Of a DNA stretch of 51,213 bases, positions 4,446-51,213 are shown one piece after another (the stretch's first letter is position 1; each line of letters opens with the position of its first letter). The notes under the pieces are model-generated. The model searched no databases, had not been told where the DNA came from, and saw only the letters and a program-made list of their open reading frames with translations. Origin of the DNA: a virus; IMG/VR virus record IMGVR_UViG_3300010939_000106, positions 1 through 51,213 of that record, one strand, 5' to 3'. A program made the translations under genes and the position numbers.

Positions 4446-6947
4446 TCAACGCCCGAACGGGGCCGGCAGCGCCGGGGGCCGCTCCGGCGGGAAGCCCGTG
4501 CCGGGCAGGGAGTAGTATCCCTGGCCGCGCCTTGCGGCGAGGCTCCTCAAGCGCCGCGCCCGCCGCCGAGCCTGGTTCGGATCGACCATCTCGCGGAGCT
4601 GGTCGGTAACCAGCCTGTCCTTCGCCAGCCGCAGATACCAAAGCGAGGTCCCCGGCAGCAGGAAACGGTCGAAGAATTCAACGAACTCCGGCAGGACCTT
4701 CGCGCCCTGCCCCTTGACCACGCGCTGCACGCCGCCGACGGTAAGCGCCACAGTGCGGTTGGCGAAATCCCAGGCCGGGCCGGCCAACAGATTGAGGGCT
4801 CCGCGCCCGTAACCGGTCACGTCCTGGAACAGCGTGTCGCCCCAGATCCCGAGCGCGCCGCCTTTGAGCATCCCCCTGATCCATGTCTCGGGATCGTCGA
4901 GCGCCGCCGGATCGCGGCCGAAGGTCATCTGCTGCAGCTCGTACCCCAGCGTTCCCAGGACCGTGGTGTAGATCATCACCTTGGCCATGTAGGCCCCTTT
5001 CTGAAATGGCGTGCGCCGCGGCGCGAACATGGCCCGCATCATATGGGTGTGAATGATGAGCGCGGGGAACCGCTTGTACATCCCGAAGAACCGGAACAGC
5101 TCCCCCTCCGGCGTTCCCTTCTTCGTCCCGACGGTCAACAACGCCTCGACCCGGGCGTTCGTGGTCGGCACCGCGAACTGCTGCTCCTGGATCACCATGG
5201 CCTTGACCTTCTGGGCGACCCTGATCGCGCGCCCGCGATCCACGCCCTTGATGTCGAGTATCCGCGAGGGGTGGAACCAGCCCTGGCCACGCCACTGGAA
5301 CAGCTCGGCCCGGCCCATGAGCTTCCAGTCCTCGGCCGTGATCCCGTAGCGCGTCAGCAGGTCGTGGAACGCCTTGTCGGTTCGCGCCAGGTCGTCGAAC
5401 GGACGGGCGAGCTTGTCGGCGAGCTCGCCGTGGAGCATCAAGGCGAAGCCCCGGCGCCCGGCGTTGGTCATCTGGGTCAGGCCCGAGGCGCGCAGGATGA
5501 AGTCGGCGTAGCGGCCCGTGGCGTTACCGCGGTTGAAGGAGTCTACGAACCGGGCCCCGGCCGCGACGTTCCCGACCATGTCGTCGATCACGATGCCCTG
5601 GCGGGTCATGTTGACGTTGATCTCGCCCCCTTTGATGGCGTCCAGGTAAAACTTCATCGCCTTGACCCCGCTGAGCCCGTTGAATTCCGCCGTCGCCTTG
5701 GTGAAGCCAGGGTCGGAAAGGGCCGAGAGCGAGGCGCTGCCCAGTTGCTGGCCGACCAGGAGCGAACGGATATTCTGCGCCACCCCCGCGAGGGATCGGC
5801 TCTCTATCCCGTCCCCACCCGAGGCGATGCGGTACTGGGCCTGAATCTGGCTTCGCTTGAACACGCCCACCCGGCGCTTCTTCAGCACGTCGTCGATGAC
5901 CCGCATGGCGTGATCCGGGTTCGGCCCGTATATCTCCATGGTCGCGATGTCGCGCGCCTGGCGGTCGAGGTGGTGCATCAGGGTCGAGAACGGGGCCTCG
6001 CGGCCGTACTTCCGGTTGTAGGCGAGCCAGCTGTCGGCGTCCTTGAAGAACAGCACCCGGGGCAGGGTCCGCCGGTTGCCGAGCTTGAGCCCCCCCGGCG
6101 CGCCCGGCTCGATCTTGTTCAACCCGTCGGTCGCGAGCGTCTCCCACACCTCGCGCAGTATCAGCTCCTTCCTCAGCCCGACGGCGATGTCGTCGGTCTC
6201 GAAATCGACCACTTCGACCCACCTCCCCGCGTCGGCGATCCAGGCGTCGCGGTCGGCGTCGGTGCTTTTCCTGACCATGCCGAGGCTCCGCGGTTTCCGC
6301 CTGCCGCCGGCGGCGAGCGCGATGCCCACATGGTCATGGACCGGATTGGGCAGGAGCCAGGGACGGTTGGGGAAGCGCTCGCTCAGCTCCGGGACGATGG
6401 CCCCCGCCAACCGCAGCTTCGCGACTCCCGTCTCGCTCGCCGCGAACCAGCCGGCGGCGAAGCCTTCCGATTCGTCCCCGGTCTTCTCGCCGAAGATCGC
6501 CCGGATCAGGTTTTCCTCCCCTTCCAGGTCGCGCTTCAATCCGGCGGCCTTGATTCGGAATTTGAAGATGGCCTCGGCCATGACCTCCTGGGCGTCGCCG
6601 AGGTGGATGGTGCGCAGCGTCTCCAGGTTCGGCACGTCGTTCATGCTGTGGTGGATGTCGAAGCCGGTCTGGGCCTGGATGCCGTTGCCCAGGCCTTTCG
6701 GATGGCGCTCCGCGAGGTTGAGCACGGCCGCCAAGCGCTGGATCTGCAAGAGACCCTGATACTTGTGTTCGAGCGCCCGCCGCTTGAGGAGCTTCGCGGT
6801 CCTGATGTCGGCGGCCTTCACCGCCGCACCGGTCTCGGCGCCGAAGTTCAGGCGTTCCTGGCCCAGGATGAGGTCGCGCAATCTCAGCGCCTCCTCGGCC
6901 TCCGCCCCGGTGAGCCCCTTCGCTCGAAAACACTTCCTCACGCTCAT
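4446..6947 (-). CDS. Large internal virion (DNA ejection) protein, gp16-like
   Basis: An 833-residue protein at the position of T7 gp16. It is mostly helical and charged, with amphipathic and weakly hydrophobic segments in the last third (about residues 640-760) that could insert in membranes during ejection. No lysozyme or transglycosylase signature is visible at the N terminus, unlike T7 gp16. It overlaps the upstream 656-residue gene by 4 bases. Together with the upstream 656- and 746-residue proteins it probably forms the ejectosome that carries DNA across the envelope. Assignment is by gene order, size and composition, not by a catalytic motif. Confidence 0.65.
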   Translation of the reverse strand: MSVRKCFRAKGLTGAEAEEALRLRDLILGQERLNFGAETGAAVKAADIRTAKLLKRRALEHKYQGLLQIQRLAAVLNLAERHPKGLGNGIQAQTGFDIHHSMNDVPNLETLRTIHLGDAQEVMAEAIFKFRIKAAGLKRDLEGEENLIRAIFGEKTGDESEGFAAGWFAASETGVAKLRLAGAIVPELSERFPNRPWLLPNPVHDHVGIALAAGGRRKPRSLGMVRKSTDADRDAWIADAGRWVEVVDFETDDIAVGLRKELILREVWETLATDGLNKIEPGAPGGLKLGNRRTLPRVLFFKDADSWLAYNRKYGREAPFSTLMHHLDRQARDIATMEIYGPNPDHAMRVIDDVLKKRRVGVFKRSQIQAQYRIASGGDGIESRSLAGVAQNIRSLLVGQQLGSASLSALSDPGFTKATAEFNGLSGVKAMKFYLDAIKGGEINVNMTRQGIVIDDMVGNVAAGARFVDSFNRGNATGRYADFILRASGLTQMTNAGRRGFALMLHGELADKLARPFDDLARTDKAFHDLLTRYGITAEDWKLMGRAELFQWRGQGWFHPSRILDIKGVDRGRAIRVAQKVKAMVIQEQQFAVPTTNARVEALLTVGTKKGTPEGELFRFFGMYKRFPALIIHTHMMRAMFAPRRTPFQKGAYMAKVMIYTTVLGTLGYELQQMTFGRDPAALDDPETWIRGMLKGGALGIWGDTLFQDVTGYGRGALNLLAGPAWDFANRTVALTVGGVQRVVKGQGAKVLPEFVEFFDRFLLPGTSLWYLRLAKDRLVTDQLREMVDPNQARRRARRLRSLAARRGQGYYSLPGTGFPPERPPALPAPFGR

Positions 6948-29948: not shown

Positions 29949-30384
29949 GATCAGCTTTCAGTGTACGGCCACGCTTTGGCTGACGGCTGACGGCTGACGG
30001 CTCGCTTTCAAGGTTCTTGCATATCCACCTCACCAGCTTGGGATTGTCGCGGAAGACCGTCGCGAAGCCGTTGCTAAAGAGGAGCGCGGCTTGTTCCTGG
30101 CCGATCATCTCATTGTCGCCGCGGCCCCATACCGACCAGATCGCGTGGCTTAGCTCGTGCAGCATGGTGCTCGCCACATTATGGGCATCGAGGCCAAGGT
30201 CGATCCAGATATAGCCGAGGCTGCTGCTGCACGACCCGAACTTCTGCTCGTTGACGGCCTGGGCATGATCGGCCAGATATACCTCGTAGTCGCGGAAGCC
30301 GATCTTGATTCGTCCGGGCGGCTTGCCGCGCGTGGCCCGGCTTGGCGGGATCGTCGGGTTGATCATGGGCTTTTCCTCACTCAT
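29938..30384 (-). CDS. Small zinc metallopeptidase-like protein
   Basis: A 148-residue protein with HELSH at residues 76-80, the HExxH zinc-binding and catalytic motif, followed by acidic residues near 92-97 that could supply the third ligand. This resembles compact ImmA/IrrE-type or SprT-like phage peptidases, which cleave repressors or remodel host proteins. ATG 30384 overlaps the methyltransferase stop (ATGA) and has GGAGG 4 bases upstream. Residues 129-136 (PSAVSRQP) are translated heptamer repeat. The stop lies 11 bases inside the helicase gene. Confidence 0.75.
   Translation of the reverse strand: MSEEKPMINPTIPPSRATRGKPPGRIKIGFRDYEVYLADHAQAVNEQKFGSCSSSLGYIWIDLGLDAHNVASTMLHELSHAIWSVWGRGDNEMIGQEQAALLFSNGFATVFRDNPKLVRWICKNLESEPSAVSRQPKRGRTLKADHGG
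29979..30002. repeat. GCTGACG repeat inside the metallopeptidase gene
   Basis: About 3.4 heptamer copies lie in the 3' part of the gene and encode SAVSRQP on the minus strand. Three heptamers make seven codons, so only multiples of three keep the frame. Confidence 0.85.
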
Positions 30385-32120
30385 CCAACCTCCGCGAGTA
30401 ATGGCTCGGCGTTCGCCTCAAAATCGTCGATGCGCCGGCCGATCCAGCCCATGACCGGCACCGCCATCGCGTTCCCTATCGCGCGGTAGCGCGGCCCGTC
30501 GGGGCAGTCCTCGGCGGGCCTGCCGCGCCAGGGGATCCGGGTGAACCCACGCGGGAAACCTTGGAGGGCCTCGCACTCCTCGACCGTTAATCTGCGGACT
30601 GCGTAAGTTCCATGTGTTGGTTGACCTTGACCGCCATCGGATTGCCCCACTTCTTCCAGCGTTGATAGTGCTTGTCGCAGTAGCCGTGACCCTTCATCGG
30701 CTTTCCGCAGACAACGCACGAGGCGCGCCGCCGGTGAAGGCGCATATGGCAGGAGCGACAGAGCCGCTCCAAGTTCTCCGGCGAGTTGTTCAGATGGTCG
30801 CCATCCCTGTGGTGGACGTCCAAGGCATCCGGCGCGCCACAGCGAGAGCACGACCCCTTCGGGACAACCTTGCGCGAATGCCAGTGCATAGTCGACCAGT
30901 CCGTGCTTCGGCTCGGTCGGGCATCGAACGCCGCGGCCATGCAGGAACGATCGCAGTATTTCCGGCGCCGGAAGTGAAGCAACGACTCCAAGACCCCATT
31001 CCTGAAACGCTTGCGCTCCAACCGCTTGTCGCAATGTGCGCAGTAGCGCAACGGTGTCGGCTTCCTCGGATAGGCCATAATTGTCCTCCGTCTTGCAGGA
31101 GAATGCGATGGCCGGAACGCCGCTCGTGATCCCGCCATCACCACGTCTCAGGCTTGGCAGATGTGTACCCACGTTCCCCCCGTCGCATTGCACCGGCACC
31201 AGCGGCGGGCCGCGCAAGATCGACTGATCCATGCCGTCCTCGCTGGCGTCCGCGCCCTCGGCGGTCAAGGCATGGCACACGAACGTCTCGGACGCGAAGT
31301 CCTGGCGGCCGTGCGCCCCCGTGTGGGCGGTGCGGGCGGTGGCCACGTCTAGCGGCCCTCGCGTCCGGTTGCCGCCATAGGCGAGGACGGCGTTTCGCAT
31401 CCGGCCGTCCTTGCCGGCGGCCGCCCCGCCGTGCTTTCCAAGGCTCGCCGTAATTGGATCGGCAACTCCTTGCCCCGCCGCGCGGCGCGGCGCAGGATGC
31501 CCCGACAGGCTTTCGGGCTCAAAAAGTACCGCCGCAGATGGTCGCCAGTCTCCAAGATATCCGACAACGAAGACGCGACGGCGGCGCTGGGGGACTCCGA
31601 AATATTGAGCGTCAAGCACTCGCCAGCAGCCAAGATACCCGCTGTCCCGTAGCGTGCTGAGGAAGGCCGCGAAATCACTGTTTTCGATAAATTCCATAAA
31701 TCCCCCTGACTGTCCCGGCTGTCCCGGCGGTATTTCGTCCGCCGATGCACCGCTCCAATTGGACAGGAGGCCGGGGACGTTCTCGAATACCAGCCAGCGG
31801 GGCCGAAGCTCGCGAGCCACGCGAAGATAGACCAGCGCCAGGTTGCCGCGCGGGTCGTCCAGGCCGAGCCGTTTGCCGGCGACCGAGAACGACTGGCAGG
31901 GCGTTCCTGCGATAAGAAGGTCAACTGGCCCATGATCCCGCGCCCTTTCCGCGAAGTCCGGTGCCGCCACGTCGCCCAGGTTCGGCGCGTCCGGCCAGTG
32001 GTGCGCCAGGACGGCGGAGCAGAACCGGTCGGTCTCGGCGATCCACGCCGGCGGCCCCCACAGATCCGCCCACGCCAGCTCCGGCGCGCCGATCCCTGAA
32101 AAGCACGACGCCCATTTCAC
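30381..32120 (-). CDS. DNA cytosine-5 methyltransferase (Dcm-type) with nested HNH gene
   Basis: A 579-residue protein. Motif I, FSGIGAPE, is at residues 7-14; the catalytic PCQS is at 74-77, with Cys75 the nucleophile; ENV is at 113-115; and QRRRRVFVVGYLG is motif VIII near 195. The C-terminal motif IX/X region has RRLTVEECEALQGFP and RYRAIGNAM. It would methylate phage DNA, probably against host restriction. Residues about 348-511 are extra: this part of the gene also encodes an HNH protein in another frame. The ATG overlaps the primase stop. Target specificity is unknown. Confidence 0.9.
   Translation of the reverse strand: MKWASCFSGIGAPELAWADLWGPPAWIAETDRFCSAVLAHHWPDAPNLGDVAAPDFAERARDHGPVDLLIAGTPCQSFSVAGKRLGLDDPRGNLALVYLRVARELRPRWLVFENVPGLLSNWSGASADEIPPGQPGQSGGFMEFIENSDFAAFLSTLRDSGYLGCWRVLDAQYFGVPQRRRRVFVVGYLGDWRPSAAVLFEPESLSGHPAPRRAAGQGVADPITASLGKHGGAAAGKDGRMRNAVLAYGGNRTRGPLDVATARTAHTGAHGRQDFASETFVCHALTAEGADASEDGMDQSILRGPPLVPVQCDGGNVGTHLPSLRRGDGGITSGVPAIAFSCKTEDNYGLSEEADTVALLRTLRQAVGAQAFQEWGLGVVASLPAPEILRSFLHGRGVRCPTEPKHGLVDYALAFAQGCPEGVVLSLWRAGCLGRPPQGWRPSEQLAGELGAALSLLPYAPSPAARLVRCLRKADEGSRLLRQALSTLEEVGQSDGGQGQPTHGTYAVRRLTVEECEALQGFPRGFTRIPWRGRPAEDCPDGPRYRAIGNAMAVPVMGWIGRRIDDFEANAEPLLAEVG
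30587..31078 (-). CDS. HNH endonuclease nested in the cytosine methyltransferase gene
   Basis: A 163-residue protein in a different frame of the same strand as the methyltransferase. Its ATG at 31078 has a textbook GGAGG 6 bases upstream. It has zinc-binding pairs (YCAHC near the start, SCSRCG in the middle, LCRSC, then CVVCGKP and YCDKHY) and the HNH core VHHRDGDHLNNSPENLERLC. These features cannot arise by chance, so the frame is coding. It begins after the methyltransferase target-recognition region and ends just before RRLTVEEC. It is probably a homing-type nuclease that entered the gene while keeping the host frame open. Confidence 0.85.
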   Translation of the reverse strand: MAYPRKPTPLRYCAHCDKRLERKRFRNGVLESLLHFRRRKYCDRSCMAAAFDARPSRSTDWSTMHWHSRKVVPKGSCSRCGAPDALDVHHRDGDHLNNSPENLERLCRSCHMRLHRRRASCVVCGKPMKGHGYCDKHYQRWKKWGNPMAVKVNQHMELTQSAD

Positions 32121-34656: not shown

Positions 34657-35468
34657 GGTCCAGCCTCGGCGACCATTGCGGCGGCGGTTCCCATGCCCGG
34701 GCCCGACGGCGGGTCGGAGTCGGGCAAGGCGAACAGCGGCGCGCCCAGACGGCCGCGAACGGCGTTCGCCTGGGCCACGAGCTGGCGCGCGGTCAGGTTA
34801 TCGCCTCGAAACAGGTAGCCCCCGGTCGCATCGTCGCGGCCAACCGCCTCGCCATGTTCCTCGAGCCACGCCACGACGTACTCCATGACGGCGACGAAGG
34901 CCGGATCGAGATCGGTTTGTGTCGGCGCTCTCGGCGTCTTCTCTGGCCCGGCGGGCGCGACCGCATGGTCGAGCTTCGCGCCCCGGTCATGGCGCTTCCG
35001 GGCGGCCATCCGGTTTACGATGCTGCGGAACTCCGGCGAGCGCCTTAGCCTAAGGAAGCTTACCTTGGTCCGGATCGAGGCTCTTGAGCACCCTTCAAGC
35101 CGGGCTGCGATCTCCGCCATGGGCACGCCCGCCGGCCAGGCTTGTTTGAGATAGGCGATATCTTCGGCTGACCATGGCACCCGTTTACCAGTCGCGCCGG
35201 GCTTCTGTACTCGGCCCCCAGGCCTCGGCCCGGCATGGTCAAGCGGACGCGTGGCCTCGACCGCCGGCTCACCGGTCGGCGCCGACGGTGCCGGCAAAGC
35301 CGGCTGGGTTTGCAAAATCTCCTCGGGCGTGATCACGCCGGTGACGAAGGCCTCGGCTCGGGCCGCGAGCGCGAGGGCCTCCTCGATCCCCTTGCCGTCA
35401 GCGAGCGCCTGGGCCAAGAACTCCGCGCGCCGGATCTCGGCCTCTTGTAAAACCACCTGATCGGTCAT
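34653..35468 (-). CDS. GcrA/SANT-like DNA-binding protein
   Basis: A 271-residue protein. The central segment (about residues 95-145), VPWSAEDIAYLKQAWPAG then MAEIAARLEGCSRASIRTKV, resembles the GcrA or Myb/SANT-type helix-turn-helix, with W and basic residues in place. An N-terminal helical region and a Pro-rich linker precede it. GcrA works with adenine-methylated DNA in alphaproteobacteria; here it sits next to an N4/N6 methyltransferase, a suggestive pairing. The palindrome at 34755-34769 lies inside this gene. Confidence 0.65.
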   Translation of the reverse strand: MTDQVVLQEAEIRRAEFLAQALADGKGIEEALALAARAEAFVTGVITPEEILQTQPALPAPSAPTGEPAVEATRPLDHAGPRPGGRVQKPGATGKRVPWSAEDIAYLKQAWPAGVPMAEIAARLEGCSRASIRTKVSFLRLRRSPEFRSIVNRMAARKRHDRGAKLDHAVAPAGPEKTPRAPTQTDLDPAFVAVMEYVVAWLEEHGEAVGRDDATGGYLFRGDNLTARQLVAQANAVRGRLGAPLFALPDSDPPSGPGMGTAAAMVAEAGP

Positions 35469-36895
35469 GTTACCCCCGCGAACAAACCGGCGTCGGCCTC
35501 GACGCGCTCCCGCGCCATTTCACAGTACTCTGCCTTGCTATCGATCAGGATCGCATCGCGGCCTAAGCGGTCGGCGACCAGCCCGACAGTCCCGGCGCCG
35601 GAGAACGGATCGAGGATCGTGCAAGAAACAGCATCGTTTATGGTGCGAATGTCATCGTTTGTGCAGCTACATGATGGTGACCAGCCGACTGTCGCCGTCT
35701 CGGCAAGAAGATTGTTCCCGCGCCACCCATGATGCCCGCCTGGCGATCCCAAGGCTTGTTTGTCCTCAGACCGTGAGCGCGGGTCGTTGCCGGCCGACGG
35801 GCGATTCTTCCGATACTCAGTTTCCGTCTCCCGTATCCAAGGGCCCCCGCACTCAGGGCAGCATCCTTTCTCCGATGTCCCGGCCTTGACCATCGGCTCG
35901 ACCAGCTTCGGCGGGAAGGTGGCGAAATGGGCCTTGGGATAGGGCGCGGTGGCGATCTCCCAGACATTGCGGAGGTTGCGGCCAATGCCACGCCCGACAT
36001 CGTCAAGACTTTCACGGGCACTACTGTCGTATTGGCTGTGACGCGGCGGTAGGCCACGCGTGCGTCCCTTTTCGCGGTTGCCTTTCTGCTGGGTTTGGCC
36101 GGGAGCGGCATAGCCTTGGCCCGTCAAGTCGTGGGCATTGCACCCGATAGCGCGCTCCCGCACCGCCTCGGCGTCGTAGAAGTACCGCTCCGCTCTTGAA
36201 AACAAGAAGACGTGCTTATATGCCTGGGTCGGGCGGTCGGTTACGGATTCCGGCATCGGATTCGGCTTGGCCCAGATGATGTCGGAGCGCAGCCACCAGC
36301 CGTCGGCTCGGAGCGCGCGTGCGACCTCGAAGGGCATGAGCATCAGATCCTTGGGCTTGAGGCCAAAAGGCACAGGCTCCCATGTTCCTTTTCCGTACCG
36401 TGCCTTTGCTCCCACCTGGGAATATCGTTCCCCTTGCGTTCCACCTCCAAATTTACCTGTGGCTGCATAGACATCGCCCATATTGAGCCACAGCGTCCCG
36501 TCCTTGCGGAGCACCCGCTTGACCGCCCGGAAGCACTCGACGATGTGGGCGAGGTAGAGCTCCGGCGTCGGCTCGAGCCCGAGCTGGCCGCGCCAAGCAC
36601 CGCAGCGGCGGCAGAGTGTGTCCTCTCGCCACCGCGTCCGCTTAAGGCGCTCGGCATTCTCGGGTCCAGGCTTGCTGAACGCCTCGTGCGAACCGACGCT
36701 CCCGCCGCCCTCGCGGTAGTATCGACGCGCAGACCACTCATGCTCGCAGTCCGCTTCCCCGCCCCACACCAGCGGCTCGAGCTTGTAATCCCTGAGCCCG
36801 AAATAGGGCGGGCTGGTGATGCAGCACTGCACCGAACTCGGCTCCATCCCGACCAGCACCTCCCGGCAATCGCCGTGTTCGATCCGGACGCTCAT
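35465..36895 (-). CDS. DNA N4/N6 (adenine or N4-cytosine) methyltransferase
   Basis: A 476-residue protein with SPPY at residues 28-31 (catalytic motif IV, close to the N terminus) and DPFSGAGTVG at about 429-438 (SAM-binding motif I near the C terminus). This is the beta-class order. Zinc-ribbon-like cysteine pairs occur in the first third (LCRRCG) and the second half (CCPECGG), which may help DNA binding. It would modify phage or host DNA. It overlaps neighbours by 4 bases on both sides. The target base cannot be fixed from the sequence. Confidence 0.85.
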   Translation of the reverse strand: MSVRIEHGDCREVLVGMEPSSVQCCITSPPYFGLRDYKLEPLVWGGEADCEHEWSARRYYREGGGSVGSHEAFSKPGPENAERLKRTRWREDTLCRRCGAWRGQLGLEPTPELYLAHIVECFRAVKRVLRKDGTLWLNMGDVYAATGKFGGGTQGERYSQVGAKARYGKGTWEPVPFGLKPKDLMLMPFEVARALRADGWWLRSDIIWAKPNPMPESVTDRPTQAYKHVFLFSRAERYFYDAEAVRERAIGCNAHDLTGQGYAAPGQTQQKGNREKGRTRGLPPRHSQYDSSARESLDDVGRGIGRNLRNVWEIATAPYPKAHFATFPPKLVEPMVKAGTSEKGCCPECGGPWIRETETEYRKNRPSAGNDPRSRSEDKQALGSPGGHHGWRGNNLLAETATVGWSPSCSCTNDDIRTINDAVSCTILDPFSGAGTVGLVADRLGRDAILIDSKAEYCEMARERVEADAGLFAGVT

Positions 36896-46041: not shown

Positions 46042-48144
46042 ATGTCGGAAAATAAAGCCATGGCCGCCGCCGAGGCGGATATCGCCAAGCAGAAGGCCGC
46101 GCCGCACGGAACCGCACTTACCCGAAATCTGCGCCAGAGGGTGAAACAGCGAGGCCTGTCCATCCGCGCGATCGCCGCCGGGGCCGGCGTCGACCACTCC
46201 GATCTCTCGCGTCTCCTCAATAACCAAAAGAAGCGGGTGAGCCTGGATTTGATCACCCGCTTGGCGGCCTACTTCGGCTGCACCGTCTCCGAGCTCCTGG
46301 ACGAGGCCGCGCCAGCCGCCGAGCCGGTCGAAGGCGTCGGCGTGATCGTCACCCTCGGCCAGATCAAGCCGCCGTCCTTCAATGCCCGCAAGCTGTTCGC
46401 CGAGGCACCCCTCGCCGAGCTCGCCGAGTCCATCGCCGAGCATGGGCTCTTGCAGGACCTGATCGTCCGATCGCTCGGCGGCGCCGGCCGCTATGAGCTC
46501 GTCGCCGGCGAACGCCGCTGGCGCGCGCTGCAGCGCCTCGCCAAGGACGGCCGCTGGAAGCCTCACCAGCCGGTGCCATGTCGCGTCGTCGAGGGTGATG
46601 ATGCCTCCATGCGCGCCGTGGCGTTGGTCGAGAACCTTCAACGCGAGGACCTGGCCCCGCTCGAGGAAGCCGAGGCCTACGCGGCGCTCTGCAAGCTCGA
46701 CCCCAAGACATGGACGTCGGCCACGATCGCCAAGAAAGTCGGCAAGACCCGGCGCCACGTGCAACTCCGCCTCTGGCTCCTGGCCAGGCTCGCGCCGCCG
46801 CTCAAGACGGCCCTCGCCGAGAACAGGATCACCCTGGCCCAGGCCCGCGCCGCCAGCGTCGCGACGCCGAAGCGCCAAAAGGAGCTTCTGCCCGACATGG
46901 TCGAGGATGGCGAGCTTGCCACCGCCGAGGACGTGCGGTACGCCGCGACGAGAGACTGGATCCCGCTTGAGCTTGCCATCTTCGACCTCGAGGGTCTCGA
47001 GTCCTCGATCGCCGAGGATTCTGAAACCGGCGAACGCTATTTCATCAATCACAAGCTGTTCCTCGAGCGCCAGAGCAAGGCCGCCGAGGCCAGGGTGGCC
47101 GAACTCAAGACGGTGTGGGCCTGGGCCGAGCTTCGCGACTACTATTCTGAATGGGAGTTTGGGCACAGTAGCGACAAGGCCAAGGCCGGAGCCATCGTCA
47201 CTTTCACTTCCTACAACGGCAAGGTCGGGGTCCACACTGGCCTGGTCAAGCGCGCGCCGGCGAAAGCTAAAGCCAAGGCCGACGCCCCACGGCCGGAGTT
47301 CACTAAGGCCCACTTGATCCATGCCCACAACGTCAAGACGTCCGCCCTACAGGCGGCGATCGCCGGCGATCACCGTAGCGCCTTGATCCTGGTGATCCTG
47401 GGCCTCATGGGCGCGACGCGTTGCGTCCACATCAGCGCCGACGGTCATGGCGCGAACGATTTGATCCTGGCGCCGGAAGTCGAAGCTATCCTCGACCGTC
47501 ACCGGCCATGGTTCAAGGATCTCCTGGCCCCCAAGGCCGAGGTCCACATGACGGCCGGGGTGCAGATCACCCCCGCCCGATACGAAATCGGCGCCGGGGC
47601 CGAGGACGAGGTGGCGCTCTATCAGGCCCTTAAAAGTATGGCCGATAGCGACCTTGACGAGCTGTTCGCCGCCCTTGTCGCCGCTCGCGCCGGCACGTTC
47701 AACGAATGGGGCCCTGAGCTCGGCGAGCGGCGGCTGGCCGTCGCCCTGGCCGACGATCTGAATATCGACATGGCCGACCATTGGCGGATCGACGAGGGCT
47801 ACCTCAAGCTCTGCCGCAAGGCCAGGCTCGCCGAGATCGCCGACGCGATCAAGGTCGGCTTACAGAAAACGCGGACAAGTCGGGGCTTAGGACCGCTCTT
47901 TCTCACTGCGGCCGAGCTCGAAAAACTTCCCGGCCCGAAACTACGCGCCGCCATCCTGGCCCGCCTCGAGGAATTGCGCGCCGCCGGCGCAGCCCCCTAC
48001 ATTCCCCGCGAGATGCGGTTCGGATCCAAGTCTGCCCTCGAGGCGCGCAAGCCTAAACCTCGGCCCACCCAAACCGCCGCCGCCGACAACGATCTTACCG
48101 CGAGCATCCCGCCTCATATGCAGCGCAAGAAACCCGATGGCTGA
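46042..48144 (+). CDS. XRE-ParB fusion DNA-binding protein
   Basis: A 700-residue protein. Residues 27-86 form an XRE helix-turn-helix (LRQRVKQRGLSIRAIAAGAG then DHSDLSRLLN). Residues 101-205 form the ParB N-terminal CTP-switch-type domain, with GERRWRA at 156-162 and ENLQRED at 197-203. A ParB HTH follows at about 220-270. The long C-terminal part (about 330-690) is like plasmid-type ParB tails and includes basic, Ala-rich linkers. No ParA gene is in the window. It may bind the palindromes described here. The second DNA-binding domain at the N terminus is unusual. Confidence 0.8.
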   Translation: MSENKAMAAAEADIAKQKAAPHGTALTRNLRQRVKQRGLSIRAIAAGAGVDHSDLSRLLNNQKKRVSLDLITRLAAYFGCTVSELLDEAAPAAEPVEGVGVIVTLGQIKPPSFNARKLFAEAPLAELAESIAEHGLLQDLIVRSLGGAGRYELVAGERRWRALQRLAKDGRWKPHQPVPCRVVEGDDASMRAVALVENLQREDLAPLEEAEAYAALCKLDPKTWTSATIAKKVGKTRRHVQLRLWLLARLAPPLKTALAENRITLAQARAASVATPKRQKELLPDMVEDGELATAEDVRYAATRDWIPLELAIFDLEGLESSIAEDSETGERYFINHKLFLERQSKAAEARVAELKTVWAWAELRDYYSEWEFGHSSDKAKAGAIVTFTSYNGKVGVHTGLVKRAPAKAKAKADAPRPEFTKAHLIHAHNVKTSALQAAIAGDHRSALILVILGLMGATRCVHISADGHGANDLILAPEVEAILDRHRPWFKDLLAPKAEVHMTAGVQITPARYEIGAGAEDEVALYQALKSMADSDLDELFAALVAARAGTFNEWGPELGERRLAVALADDLNIDMADHWRIDEGYLKLCRKARLAEIADAIKVGLQKTRTSRGLGPLFLTAAELEKLPGPKLRAAILARLEELRAAGAAPYIPREMRFGSKSALEARKPKPRPTQTAAADNDLTASIPPHMQRKKPDG

Positions 48145-48424
48145 CCGCGTCCTTATTTCCGCCGCCGAAGTGGCAACGAAACTCGGCCACGCCACCGACT
48201 GGTTCTACCGCCGCCGCGACCGTCTCGAGCGCGACCTGGGCTTTCCTCCCTGCGTCGCCGGCTGCGGCAAGCGCTGGGATCCCGAGGCCATCGACCGTTG
48301 GCTCGACGCTCAGATGCCGGCCCCCTTGCGGCCCACGGGCAAGCAGATCGACGACTCCTGGGCGCGCCGCCTCGACGCCCGGGCCGCCGCCCTGGCCGTG
48401 CGCATGGGCGAAGAAGCCGGTTGA
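48137..48424 (+). CDS. AlpA/Xis-like excisionase or regulator
   Basis: A 95-residue protein with a MerR/AlpA-type winged helix: LISAAEVATKLGHATDWFYRRRDRL then GCGKRWDPEAIDRWLDAQ. It overlaps the XRE-ParB gene by 8 bases and precedes the integrase by 60 bases. It is likely to direct excision or regulate integrase. The helix-turn-helix is clear; the role is inferred from position. Confidence 0.7.
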   Translation: MADRVLISAAEVATKLGHATDWFYRRRDRLERDLGFPPCVAGCGKRWDPEAIDRWLDAQMPAPLRPTGKQIDDSWARRLDARAAALAVRMGEEAG

Positions 48425-48484: not shown

Positions 48485-49633
48485 ATGGCCCGAATCAAAA
48501 TCCGCTATCTGACCGAGCGGTCCGCGCGCCGCGGCGGCGTCCGGCGTTTCTGGCAGCCCTCGGCCGCGCTCCGGACCGATGGCTGGCGCATGGTTCGCCT
48601 GCCCGACGATCCTGCGGCAGCCATCGCCGAGGCCGAGCGCCTGAACGCCCTCCTCGACGCCTGGCGCCGGGGTGAGGATATGCGTGATGTAATCCCGCCG
48701 GCAGTCAAGGCCCCGCACCGCATCCGCCCGGCGATCCGCACCGTCGACGCCCTGATCGCCGACTACCGCGCGGCCGAGGACTTCACCCGCCTCCGGGCCT
48801 CGACCCGGCGCGGCTACGAGCAGAACCTGGCCATCATCTCGGATTGGGCCGGCGATGCCCCGGTCCGGGCCCTGACCCCGAAGCGCTGCAGGGCGCTCCA
48901 TGCCCAGTTCAAGATCGAGACCCCGGCCAAGGCCAATGCGGTCCTCCGGGTCCTTCGCCTTCTCCTGGAGTACGGCCGCCGCGACGATTGGATCGAGATC
49001 AACCCAGCACGCAAACTGAAGCTCGCCGGGCTCCCGCCCTCAGGCCGGCTGTGGCCGCGCGAGGCGGTGCAGCTGTTCGCCCGGACCGCCGACCGGATGG
49101 GCCGACCGTCGATCGGCACCGCCGTTATCCTGAACGAGTGGCTCGGCCAGCGCGAGGGTGACCTGATCCGCCTATCGCGGTCGATCTACCGTGAAGGCAA
49201 CCTGTGGATCACCCAGGCGAAAACCGGGGCGCAGGTCACGTTGCCGGTAGACATGGTGCCGCACTTGCGCGCACGGCTCGAGGAGGAGCTCGCCCGCCAA
49301 ACCGTCGCCGAGGTCACCGCGACGACGCTCATCGTCTCGGAGGTCACCCGCCGCCCCTACGAGGCCGACAACTTTCGCCACGTCTTCGCCGCCGTCCGCG
49401 CCGAGGCCGCCAAGGAGATGCCGGAGATCGCGCAGCTTTGGTTCATGCATCTGCGTCACACCGCTATCACCCGCCTCGCCGAGGCCGGCTGCGAGCTGCC
49501 CGAGATCGCCGCCATCACCGGTCATTCCCTGCCGACCTGTCAGGCGATCATCGACCGCTACCTTATCCGCACCGGCGAGCTCGCCCGCGCCGCCTTCCAG
49601 AAACGCCTTGATGCGGAACGGAACGGCGCGTAG
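48485..49633 (+). CDS. Tyrosine-family site-specific integrase
   Basis: A 382-residue recombinase. The first 62 residues form a small basic domain that is copied in the next gene. Residues about 85-175 are the core-binding domain. Catalytic residues: R223 in GQREGDL, R324 in the HLRHT box, H347 in TGHS and Y359 in DRYL. The box II position that is usually His (HxxR) is Met321, a variant seen in some integrases. It would recombine at the tRNA-Lys site 650 bases away. GGGAGG lies 9 bases before ATG. Confidence 0.9.
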   Translation: MARIKIRYLTERSARRGGVRRFWQPSAALRTDGWRMVRLPDDPAAAIAEAERLNALLDAWRRGEDMRDVIPPAVKAPHRIRPAIRTVDALIADYRAAEDFTRLRASTRRGYEQNLAIISDWAGDAPVRALTPKRCRALHAQFKIETPAKANAVLRVLRLLLEYGRRDDWIEINPARKLKLAGLPPSGRLWPREAVQLFARTADRMGRPSIGTAVILNEWLGQREGDLIRLSRSIYREGNLWITQAKTGAQVTLPVDMVPHLRARLEEELARQTVAEVTATTLIVSEVTRRPYEADNFRHVFAAVRAEAAKEMPEIAQLWFMHLRHTAITRLAEAGCELPEIAAITGHSLPTCQAIIDRYLIRTGELARAAFQKRLDAERNGA

Positions 49634-50194
49634 ATGGCAACAATCAAGGTCCGTTATTTCACGAAACGTGTCGGCAAACGCGGCAACGTCCGTTACTTTT
49701 GGGAGCCGGGCGGCGCTCTCCGCCAGAAAGGATGGCGCACAAGGAGACTGCCGGACAATGAATTGGATGCGATCACTGAGGCCGAGATAATCAATGCTGG
49801 TCTGGATATGAGCCGTCGTTCACACCAGCCGACCGAAGGCATCTCTATTAATTCCCAGCAACAGAAGTACACACCGGGTGGAATATATATCATCGCGTCA
49901 CCCAATGGCCCGGTGAAAATCGGAGTCACCACTAATCCGATGCGGCGACTAGCTCACCTCCAGCAGTCTACACCAAACAAACTGGATCTTCTATTCTACA
50001 TGAAGTGTCGTGAGATACACGCGACTACAGCCGAGCGGGTTGTCCATTATCTGTTGAGCGCCAAGCGATTAAAAGGCGAGTGGTTCGCCGTGACACCTGA
50101 GCATGCTATCGCCGCGATCTTCCGCGTACTGGGTTGGCATCCGCCTAAAGTCAAAATGTTCCGGGAGGCCATGCACGTAGACCGGCCCGATTAG
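49634..50194 (+). CDS. GIY-YIG nuclease carrying the integrase N-terminal domain
   Basis: A 186-residue protein that starts directly after the integrase stop. Residues 1-62 match the integrase start at about 36 of 62 positions, with shared motifs such as ALR, GW, RLP and AEA. Residues 80-165 form a GIY-YIG/T5orf172-type nuclease: GGIYII at 82-87, KIGVTTNPMRRLAHLQ at 95-110, E134 and GEWF at 148-151. The nuclease half is visibly less GC-rich than its surroundings, so it was likely acquired. The N-terminal domain may guide the nuclease to DNA sites bound by the integrase. Confidence 0.8.
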   Translation: MATIKVRYFTKRVGKRGNVRYFWEPGGALRQKGWRTRRLPDNELDAITEAEIINAGLDMSRRSHQPTEGISINSQQQKYTPGGIYIIASPNGPVKIGVTTNPMRRLAHLQQSTPNKLDLLFYMKCREIHATTAERVVHYLLSAKRLKGEWFAVTPEHAIAAIFRVLGWHPPKVKMFREAMHVDRPD

Positions 50195-50284
50195 TATTAG
50201 AGTGCTTTAATTTTCGTCGGTGAAGGCCCATAGTATAACAGCCTCTGACGGCCAACGGTTTCGTTTTCAACACAAAGCACCAAT
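50195..50284. other. Phage side of attR
   Basis: This is the non-coding strip between the GIY-YIG gene and the tRNA fragment. It may hold arm-type integrase sites; no clear repeat stands out. Confidence 0.4.
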
Positions 50285-50329
50285 CTCTTAATCAGCGGGT
50301 CCCGGGTTCGAGTCCCGGATCGCCCCCCA
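50285..50329 (+). other. attR core: 3' half of tRNA-Lys (CTT)
   Basis: The sequence from CTCTTAA (anticodon loop with CTT) through TCAGC, a 5-base variable loop, the T arm CCGGG-TTCGAGT-CCCGG, acceptor strand ATCGCCC, one base and CCA reads as the 3' half of a tRNA. The 5' half is missing: the bases upstream do not pair. This is the typical trace of integration into a tRNA gene. Confidence 0.85.
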
Positions 50330-50372: not shown

Positions 50373-51213
50373 ATGCTGCCGATCTTCTCAAAGCCCGTGG
50401 ACCAAATCACCGCCGAGGACGTTAGCGCACTTGTGGCGAACAAGTGGCCCGAAGGCGACACGGTTGAGTTCAAAGAGGCGCTTCCCAGCAAGAAAGCCGG
50501 CGGTGATCCTTGGATCACTGGGGCCAACAGCATTTCGGATTACGCCCGCAATGAGATTTTGGCCGGGGTCGTGGCGTTCGCAAATGCTCATGGGGGCATG
50601 GTCATCCTCGGCATCGCGGAGACTACGGACAAGCTGCCCCGAGCTGCCGCTATCAACCCGCTTCCCCGTTGCGCGGAGCTGGCCGAGCGGCTTCTCGACC
50701 AGGCTCGGGAGTGTATTGAGCCCAAGCTGCCCGTGCTTTCCGTGCGAGGCGTTGAAATGGACAAAAAGGGCAACGGAGTTGTTGTCTTTCGCGTGCCCCA
50801 GTCACGTCTGGCTCCTCACCGGCTGGAGCCCACTCGTCACTGCTATTACCGAAGGGCGGCTAGCAGCGAGAAGATGACCATGCGGGAGATACAGGACCTC
50901 ACCTTGCGCCTTGAACGAGGTCTTGAGGCTATCGAACGGCGGTTTATAAAACAGCGAGAGGCGTTTGAGAAATGGGTCACGGCGGGGGGAATAGGTTCGG
51001 ATGGCGTTCCCGCTTTCGGCATAAAGAGCACGGCAATACCCATGTCTGCGGACCTAAACGTGGAGCGCGTTTACCAAAGGCCAGAATACCTCCCGGCTGT
51101 TCGCCCATTCGCCGCAAAGGTGGAGAAAAGCGGAGTCGAACTGCTAGTACCGAATATACCGGTCAGGGAAAGGCCGATACTCCGCGGGACGCTCAGAGAG
51201 TACGATGATAGGC
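50373..51213 (+). CDS. AlbA_2 (Schlafen-like) domain protein, open at window end
   Basis: A frame from ATG 50373 that stays open to the last base (280 codons seen). Residues 30-90 match the AlbA_2 pattern: DTVEFKEALP, then a helix and VVAFANAHGGMVILGIAE. The next part continues an alpha/beta fold with KGNGVVVFRVPQS. AlbA_2 domains occur in helix-turn-helix regulators and in some defence proteins. It lies outside attR, so it belongs to the host chromosome (or another element). The C-terminal half is not visible. Confidence 0.75.
   Translation, partial: MLPIFSKPVDQITAEDVSALVANKWPEGDTVEFKEALPSKKAGGDPWITGANSISDYARNEILAGVVAFANAHGGMVILGIAETTDKLPRAAAINPLPRCAELAERLLDQARECIEPKLPVLSVRGVEMDKKGNGVVVFRVPQSRLAPHRLEPTRHCYYRRAASSEKMTMREIQDLTLRLERGLEAIERRFIKQREAFEKWVTAGGIGSDGVPAFGIKSTAIPMSADLNVERVYQRPEYLPAVRPFAAKVEKSGVELLVPNIPVRERPILRGTLREYDDR

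Follow-up and report, generated by a model that had tools for sequence, protein, structure and literature searches.

Odn (ICP1 gp88) is a T5orf172 nuclease that carries a borrowed initiator domain, and it was shown by experiment to cut the origin used by that initiator; E180 of Odn is a predicted catalytic residue, and was mutated in experiment (PMC8263062). In Odn-like proteins of coliphages, domain swaps mirror the initiators of the satellites (PMC10448857). The T5orf172 domain is also found in free-standing phage homing endonucleases, which behave as mobile genes and insert by a conserved target; those surveyed are mostly zinc-finger proteins (CapR, DUF723, DUF4397) encoded near structural or replication genes (PMC10448857). 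No report of a nuclease joined to an integrase arm domain was found in the open literature that was searched, which omits most subscription papers and preprints.

The nuclease described here is similar to Odn in that a T5orf172-type C-terminal nuclease is joined to a putative DNA-binding domain copied from a DNA-handling protein of a mobile element, and in that the domain swaps track the partner protein in both. Odn has a RepA_N replication-initiator domain, targets the origin of a rival satellite and is carried by a lytic phage, whereas the present nuclease has the arm domain of an integrase, is encoded beside the matching integrase and has the attachment site as its predicted target. Pairwise BLASTP of the two proteins gives no significant match, and none in the N-terminal part; it takes a multiple alignment to align their nuclease cores. 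With the RepA_N feature absent, the family is not Odn; it would apply the same logic at another site. The free-standing homing endonucleases share its domain family, its apparent mobile-gene behavior and its placement beside a conserved target, and differ in their mostly zinc-finger domains and genomic neighbors. The lambda-type tyrosine integrases are the presumed source type of its N-terminal domain and in relatives have arm-like repeats beside the core; their core-binding and catalytic recombinase domains are missing from the nuclease.

The window, meaning the whole stretch of 51,213 nucleotides that was analyzed, is a virus contig from IMG/VR. The element is recognizable as a tailed phage by its genes for tail, head-tail adaptor and primase, and as temperate by its integrase together with an attachment-site remnant (Table 1). 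An earlier note, made from the sequence alone, had placed a GIY-YIG nuclease directly against the integrase gene at attR, and this description holds. The integrase stop codon, TAG, occupies positions 49631-49633, and the nuclease frame opens with no gap at 49634. Residues 82-164 of the nuclease match MUG113 (PF13455; 2.6e-17, 63.6 bits) and T5orf172 (PF10544; 6.1e-13, 49.6 bits), above the curated Pfam gathering cut-offs of 22.3 and 20 bits, respectively. The catalytic Arg and Glu are kept, with R105 and E134 aligned to R148 and E180 of Odn in the multiple alignment. A Foldseek search with the whole nuclease gave just weak and uninformative matches to the GIY-YIG fold. The 3' part of a tRNA-Lys(CTT) lies 87 bp past the nuclease stop, with no intact tRNA called there by ARAGORN, as would fit attR; several loci whose integrases are related have this same tRNA sequence downstream of int as well.

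Table 1. Features of the integrase-nuclease locus in the window, and arm-type repeats in related loci (prefixed by locus)
Feature	Coordinates	Strand	Support or remarks
Small gene for a Xis-like DNA-binding protein, upstream of int	48137-48424	+	phrog_66 excisionase/regulator 1.6e-5
Tyrosine integrase, 382 aa	48485-49633	+	PF00589 1.6e-10
Integrase N-terminal domain, arm-binding position; type common to nuclease	48485-48679	+	BLASTP; lambda Int alignment
Chimeric GIY-YIG nuclease, 186 aa	49634-50194	+	Pfam, BLASTP; AF2 model pLDDT 84
Integrase-type N-terminal domain of nuclease	49634-49822	+	BLASTP and structure model
GIY-YIG (MUG113/T5orf172) catalytic domain	49877-50134	+	Pfam; alignment with ICP1 Odn
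Arg105 codon, equivalent of conserved catalytic Arg (Odn R148; residue role, PMC8263062)	49946-49948	+	Alignment
Glu134 codon, equivalent of Odn catalytic E180	50033-50035	+	Alignment
Spacer from nuclease stop to att core, AT-richer, candidate arm region	50195-50282	.	About 87-90 bp
Probable attR core: tRNA-Lys(CTT) 3' part, anticodon loop to CCA	50283-50329	+	
Arm-type triple repeats by tRNA-Lys(CTT) cores	L009:2731-2763; L012:6232-6264; L037:7287-7330		

Three further observations concern the rest of the window. Past the att core, the sequence at 50379-51213 encodes a protein that by eye resembles an AlbA_2-type DNA-binding protein, and probably belongs to the host or to another element. Two methyltransferase genes, 30384-32120 (-) and 35468-36895 (-), give family matches that are overlong relative to their profiles (571 residues against 289 profile positions, and 470 against 227), a sign that they may contain large insertions in frame, for example inteins or additional domains. 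The 95-nt tRNA-His called by ARAGORN within a coding region, 32005-32099 (-), is probably a false positive.

The first 62 residues of the nuclease were said in the earlier note to resemble the start of the adjacent integrase at about 36 positions. The count is exact, at 36/62 identical residues (E 1e-20), and BLASTP of the two proteins aligns nuclease residues 1-65 to the integrase N-terminus with 36/65 identities and no gaps, again at E 1e-20. Starting from this domain, a profile of the integrase family aligns colinearly with lambda Int (probability 96, E 2.7e-9), and in that alignment the shared domain occupies the position of the lambda Int arm-binding domain; compared by itself in hhalign, the domain does not match lambda Int significantly. 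An AF2 model of the domain folds as strand-strand-short helix-strand-helix. Its top Foldseek matches by TM-score are the lambda Int structures 2wcc and 1z1b, both at TM 0.55 with E about 6; 2wcc, the lambda Int N-terminal domain on arm DNA, has E 6.3. The structure prediction proposed in the earlier note therefore yields a resemblance to the lambda Int arm domain that falls short of significance, and the likeness of the modeled folds is suggestive only. From the position and the fold, the N-terminal domain of the nuclease would bind arm DNA. Repeat domains of large clostridial toxins, which came up when the domain profile was compared with solved structures, were rejected because the likeness is that of 20-residue hairpins, none of the aligned stretches being significant by itself. 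The window type of domain is rare, being present in 9/385 Alphaproteobacteria genomes.

The fusion gene is one compositional unit, unlike the neighboring integrase: its two parts have the same GC3, 0.60, against 0.83-0.88 in the integrase. A recent local tandem duplication of the integrase start was ruled out by this difference. Nor can assembly errors explain the shared N-terminus in general, given that fusions occur on numerous contigs of independent origin, one of them from a Sphingomonas genome. Single-sequence scans of viral and genome collections gave no match to the full nuclease, and such scans with the N-terminal domain alone gave one weak phage match (E 0.1) and no plasmid match.

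Scans of viral contigs and genomes gathered 188 distinct GIY-YIG ORFs. The search for other nucleases with an integrase N-terminal domain, which the earlier note had called for, found eight further distinct fusions, making nine with the window (the near-identical contigs L264 and L267 were counted once). The N-terminal domains fall into four classes, with the window and L021 in class 1, L262, L264, L270 and L268 in class 2, L054 (Sphingomonas sp.) and L261 in class 3, and L314 in class 4. In all but L021, where the integrase lies 2.3 kb upstream, the nuclease gene is on the same strand and at most about 500 bp downstream of the integrase gene. The nuclease and integrase of a pair are identical at 30/41 positions in L021 (best segment), 18/46 in L054 (E 2e-5), 25/50 in L261, 31/58 in L262, 34/56 in L264, and 25/46 in both L270 and L314. 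When each nuclease N-terminus was compared with 60 integrases, its own integrase was the top match in seven of the eight cases scored (the window, L021, L054, L261, L262, L264 and L314) and ranked second in L270. The two class 1 nuclease N-termini are 40% identical and are each other's lowest match in the compared set. An N-terminal part of 25 aa or more was present in 128 distinct GIY-YIG ORFs, and of these none encoded away from an integrase matched an integrase N-terminus. The interpretation given in the earlier note, that a nuclease sharing the arm domain could act at att sites, is supported in part, in that the fusion is genuine, occurs repeatedly and goes with a nearby integrase.

The arrangement is rare in chromosomes, since among the loci inspected for the 57 GIY-YIG matches from 385 Alphaproteobacteria there is no fusion linked to an integrase. 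The AU test rejects a single clade for the nine GIY-YIG domains (p 0.001). In the GIY-YIG tree the nuclease domain of L261 groups with the class 2 fusions (support 97/80) despite its class 3 N-terminal domain, and that of L054, also with a class 3 domain, is placed apart from L261, with a clade of both only near rejection (p 0.059). The arm and nuclease domains were therefore combined several times. For the 62-aa N-terminal domain, which is too short for a firm tree, a clade of the window and L021 nucleases is not rejected (p 0.118). The nuclease gene has a lower GC content than its own integrase gene in 7/9 cases.

This recurrence bears on the possibility that the N-terminus is a stray duplicate of the integrase start, picked up by a GIY-YIG gene and without a targeting function. 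Recombination can create N-terminal duplications beside a gene, and GIY-YIG genes do adjoin integrases without the matching domain, in L011, L015, L207, L243, L315 and L318, and in L221, L279 and L288, where they lie upstream of int; L011 and L015 could be read as favoring such a by-product. Four domain classes, several GIY-YIG lineages, nearly constant local matching, and the retention of open frames and catalytic residues argue against it and make this origin very unlikely.

Two of these counter-cases have features of their own. The GIY-YIG gene of L011 (6586-7092) lies downstream of a class 1 integrase and has an N-terminus that appears by eye to be an excisionase-type helix-turn-helix, with a weak match to phrog_7338 (E 0.01); an excisionase-like N-terminus is a possible second way of aiming at att. 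In L015 (6409-6809), a GIY-YIG domain lies between int and att with no usable in-frame start codon upstream, and may be a decayed or frameshifted member.

The history of one insertion can be read in L054, a Sphingomonas element bounded by a 41-bp repeat of the 5' half of tRNA-Cys, with the copies 23 kb apart and the nuclease as the last gene before att. The nuclease gene is absent from three relatives at tRNA-Cys, L347, L348 and L349. The integrase of L347, at the same tRNA-Cys, is 73% identical to that of L054, and L347 aligns with L054 on both flanks of the nuclease gene, with the join at CAGGAG. As we read this alignment, about 0.48 kb is inserted in the last codons of the L054 integrase gene, between its 3' end and att, such that the nuclease now ends in the former integrase tail. 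No close relative of the window element was found for a similar empty-site comparison.

The reading that best accounts for these observations is that the gene encodes a homing-type GIY-YIG nuclease directed to att arms, a proposal to which we give an even chance. In short, the N-terminal domain, copied from the arm-binding domain of a lambda-type integrase, would dock on arm-type sites beside the att core, leaving the GIY-YIG domain to cut DNA in the vicinity. The nuclease gene itself would be an insertion between the 3' end of the integrase gene and the arm sites. Relatives without the gene would keep an intact int/att junction and the same integrase specificity, often at the same tRNA gene, and would be cut; repair would then copy the nuclease gene, the rival would be lost, or both. 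Arm binding, DNA cutting, the escape of the carrier's own DNA and any advantage are all presumed. This account covers position, domain matching, variable presence, low GC and the insertion footprint; it does not cover sparing of the carrier's own att.

The nuclease might instead be purely an exclusion effector, with a prophage cutting the attP of incoming phages that have similar arm sites, and so protecting the host and the tRNA site without homing. Accessory prophage genes often lie between int and att, as this gene does, and the use of tRNA-Lys(CTT) by related integrases means that competition for one site is real. A further case that fits is L268, where the nuclease (4758-5366) has a class 2 arm domain and overlaps an upstream integrase of an unrelated class, as if targeting another element. 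This mismatch reflects either aim at another element or exchange of the integrase, and suggests that some copies of the nuclease aim at other elements. Elsewhere, however, the domain mostly matches the integrase of its own element and not that of a rival, so that self-targeting would be expected, and the insertion footprint resembles that of a mobile gene. Exclusion without homing is therefore rather unlikely.

The presumed target sites were sought beside the att cores. In relatives, the stretch from int to the tRNA-Lys core contains three short repeats, an arrangement like that of lambda P'1-P'2-P'3. The repeated word is AGTTGGAAT in L009, AGTTTGAAC in L012 and L014, and GTTAGACT in L032, L037 and L039, with one copy inverted. 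No shuffled sequence equaled these triple repeats in 1000 trials for each locus (200 for L014). Weaker repeats, equaled by 25/500 and 9/500 shuffles, lie next to the fusion genes of L262 and L314, respectively, and no repeat motif was resolved in the spacer of about 90 bp in the window. In tRNA-Cys elements, words like GACTGCAAACT or GTGCGAACT lie just downstream of int, twice in L348 and L349, by direct reading and without statistics. The arm-repeat motifs differ between the integrases of L009, L012 and L037, and might serve to decipher the arm-site code of the family.

The nuclease stop is 9 bp from the tRNA 3' end in L268, 51 bp in L262 and 166 bp in L314. Presumed arm sites lie just downstream of some nuclease genes, which would also suit a regulator that tunes integration or excision, either by competition with the integrase over arm sites or by nicking of the element's own att, with any cutting of other elements incidental. 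Expression coupled to int is suggested by the tight gene order, with no gap in the window, a gap of 2 in L264 and an overlap of 10 nt in L054. Most relatives with the same integrase type nevertheless lack the gene: PF13455 is present in 4/24 such records, the window included, and the three tRNA-Cys relatives are without it, so that recombination does not require the gene. In addition, the kept catalytic residues would be needless for a mere competitor. A regulatory role is accordingly judged quite unlikely. For the homing nuclease, the presence of presumed sites beside each element's own copy means that self-cutting must be avoided. Possible means are distance or sequence demands for cutting, as with I-TevI, or a shift of the cut site when the gene inserted.

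More generally, tyrosine integrases may have repeatedly supplied arm domains to invading GIY-YIG nucleases, forming a class of att-arm-directed nucleases that spread between elements, or exclude them, by cutting the site that rivals need for integration; we hold this broader view tentatively, at a little under even chances. If it is true, attachment sites would be a battlefield like replication origins, where a nuclease borrows the address system of the integrase. Integrase specificity would then constrain both the element and its parasite, and could drive the diversification of arm sites among phages that use the same tRNA gene. Such pairs of integrase and nuclease would have matched DNA specificity, and the poorly known arm-site code would become directly measurable.
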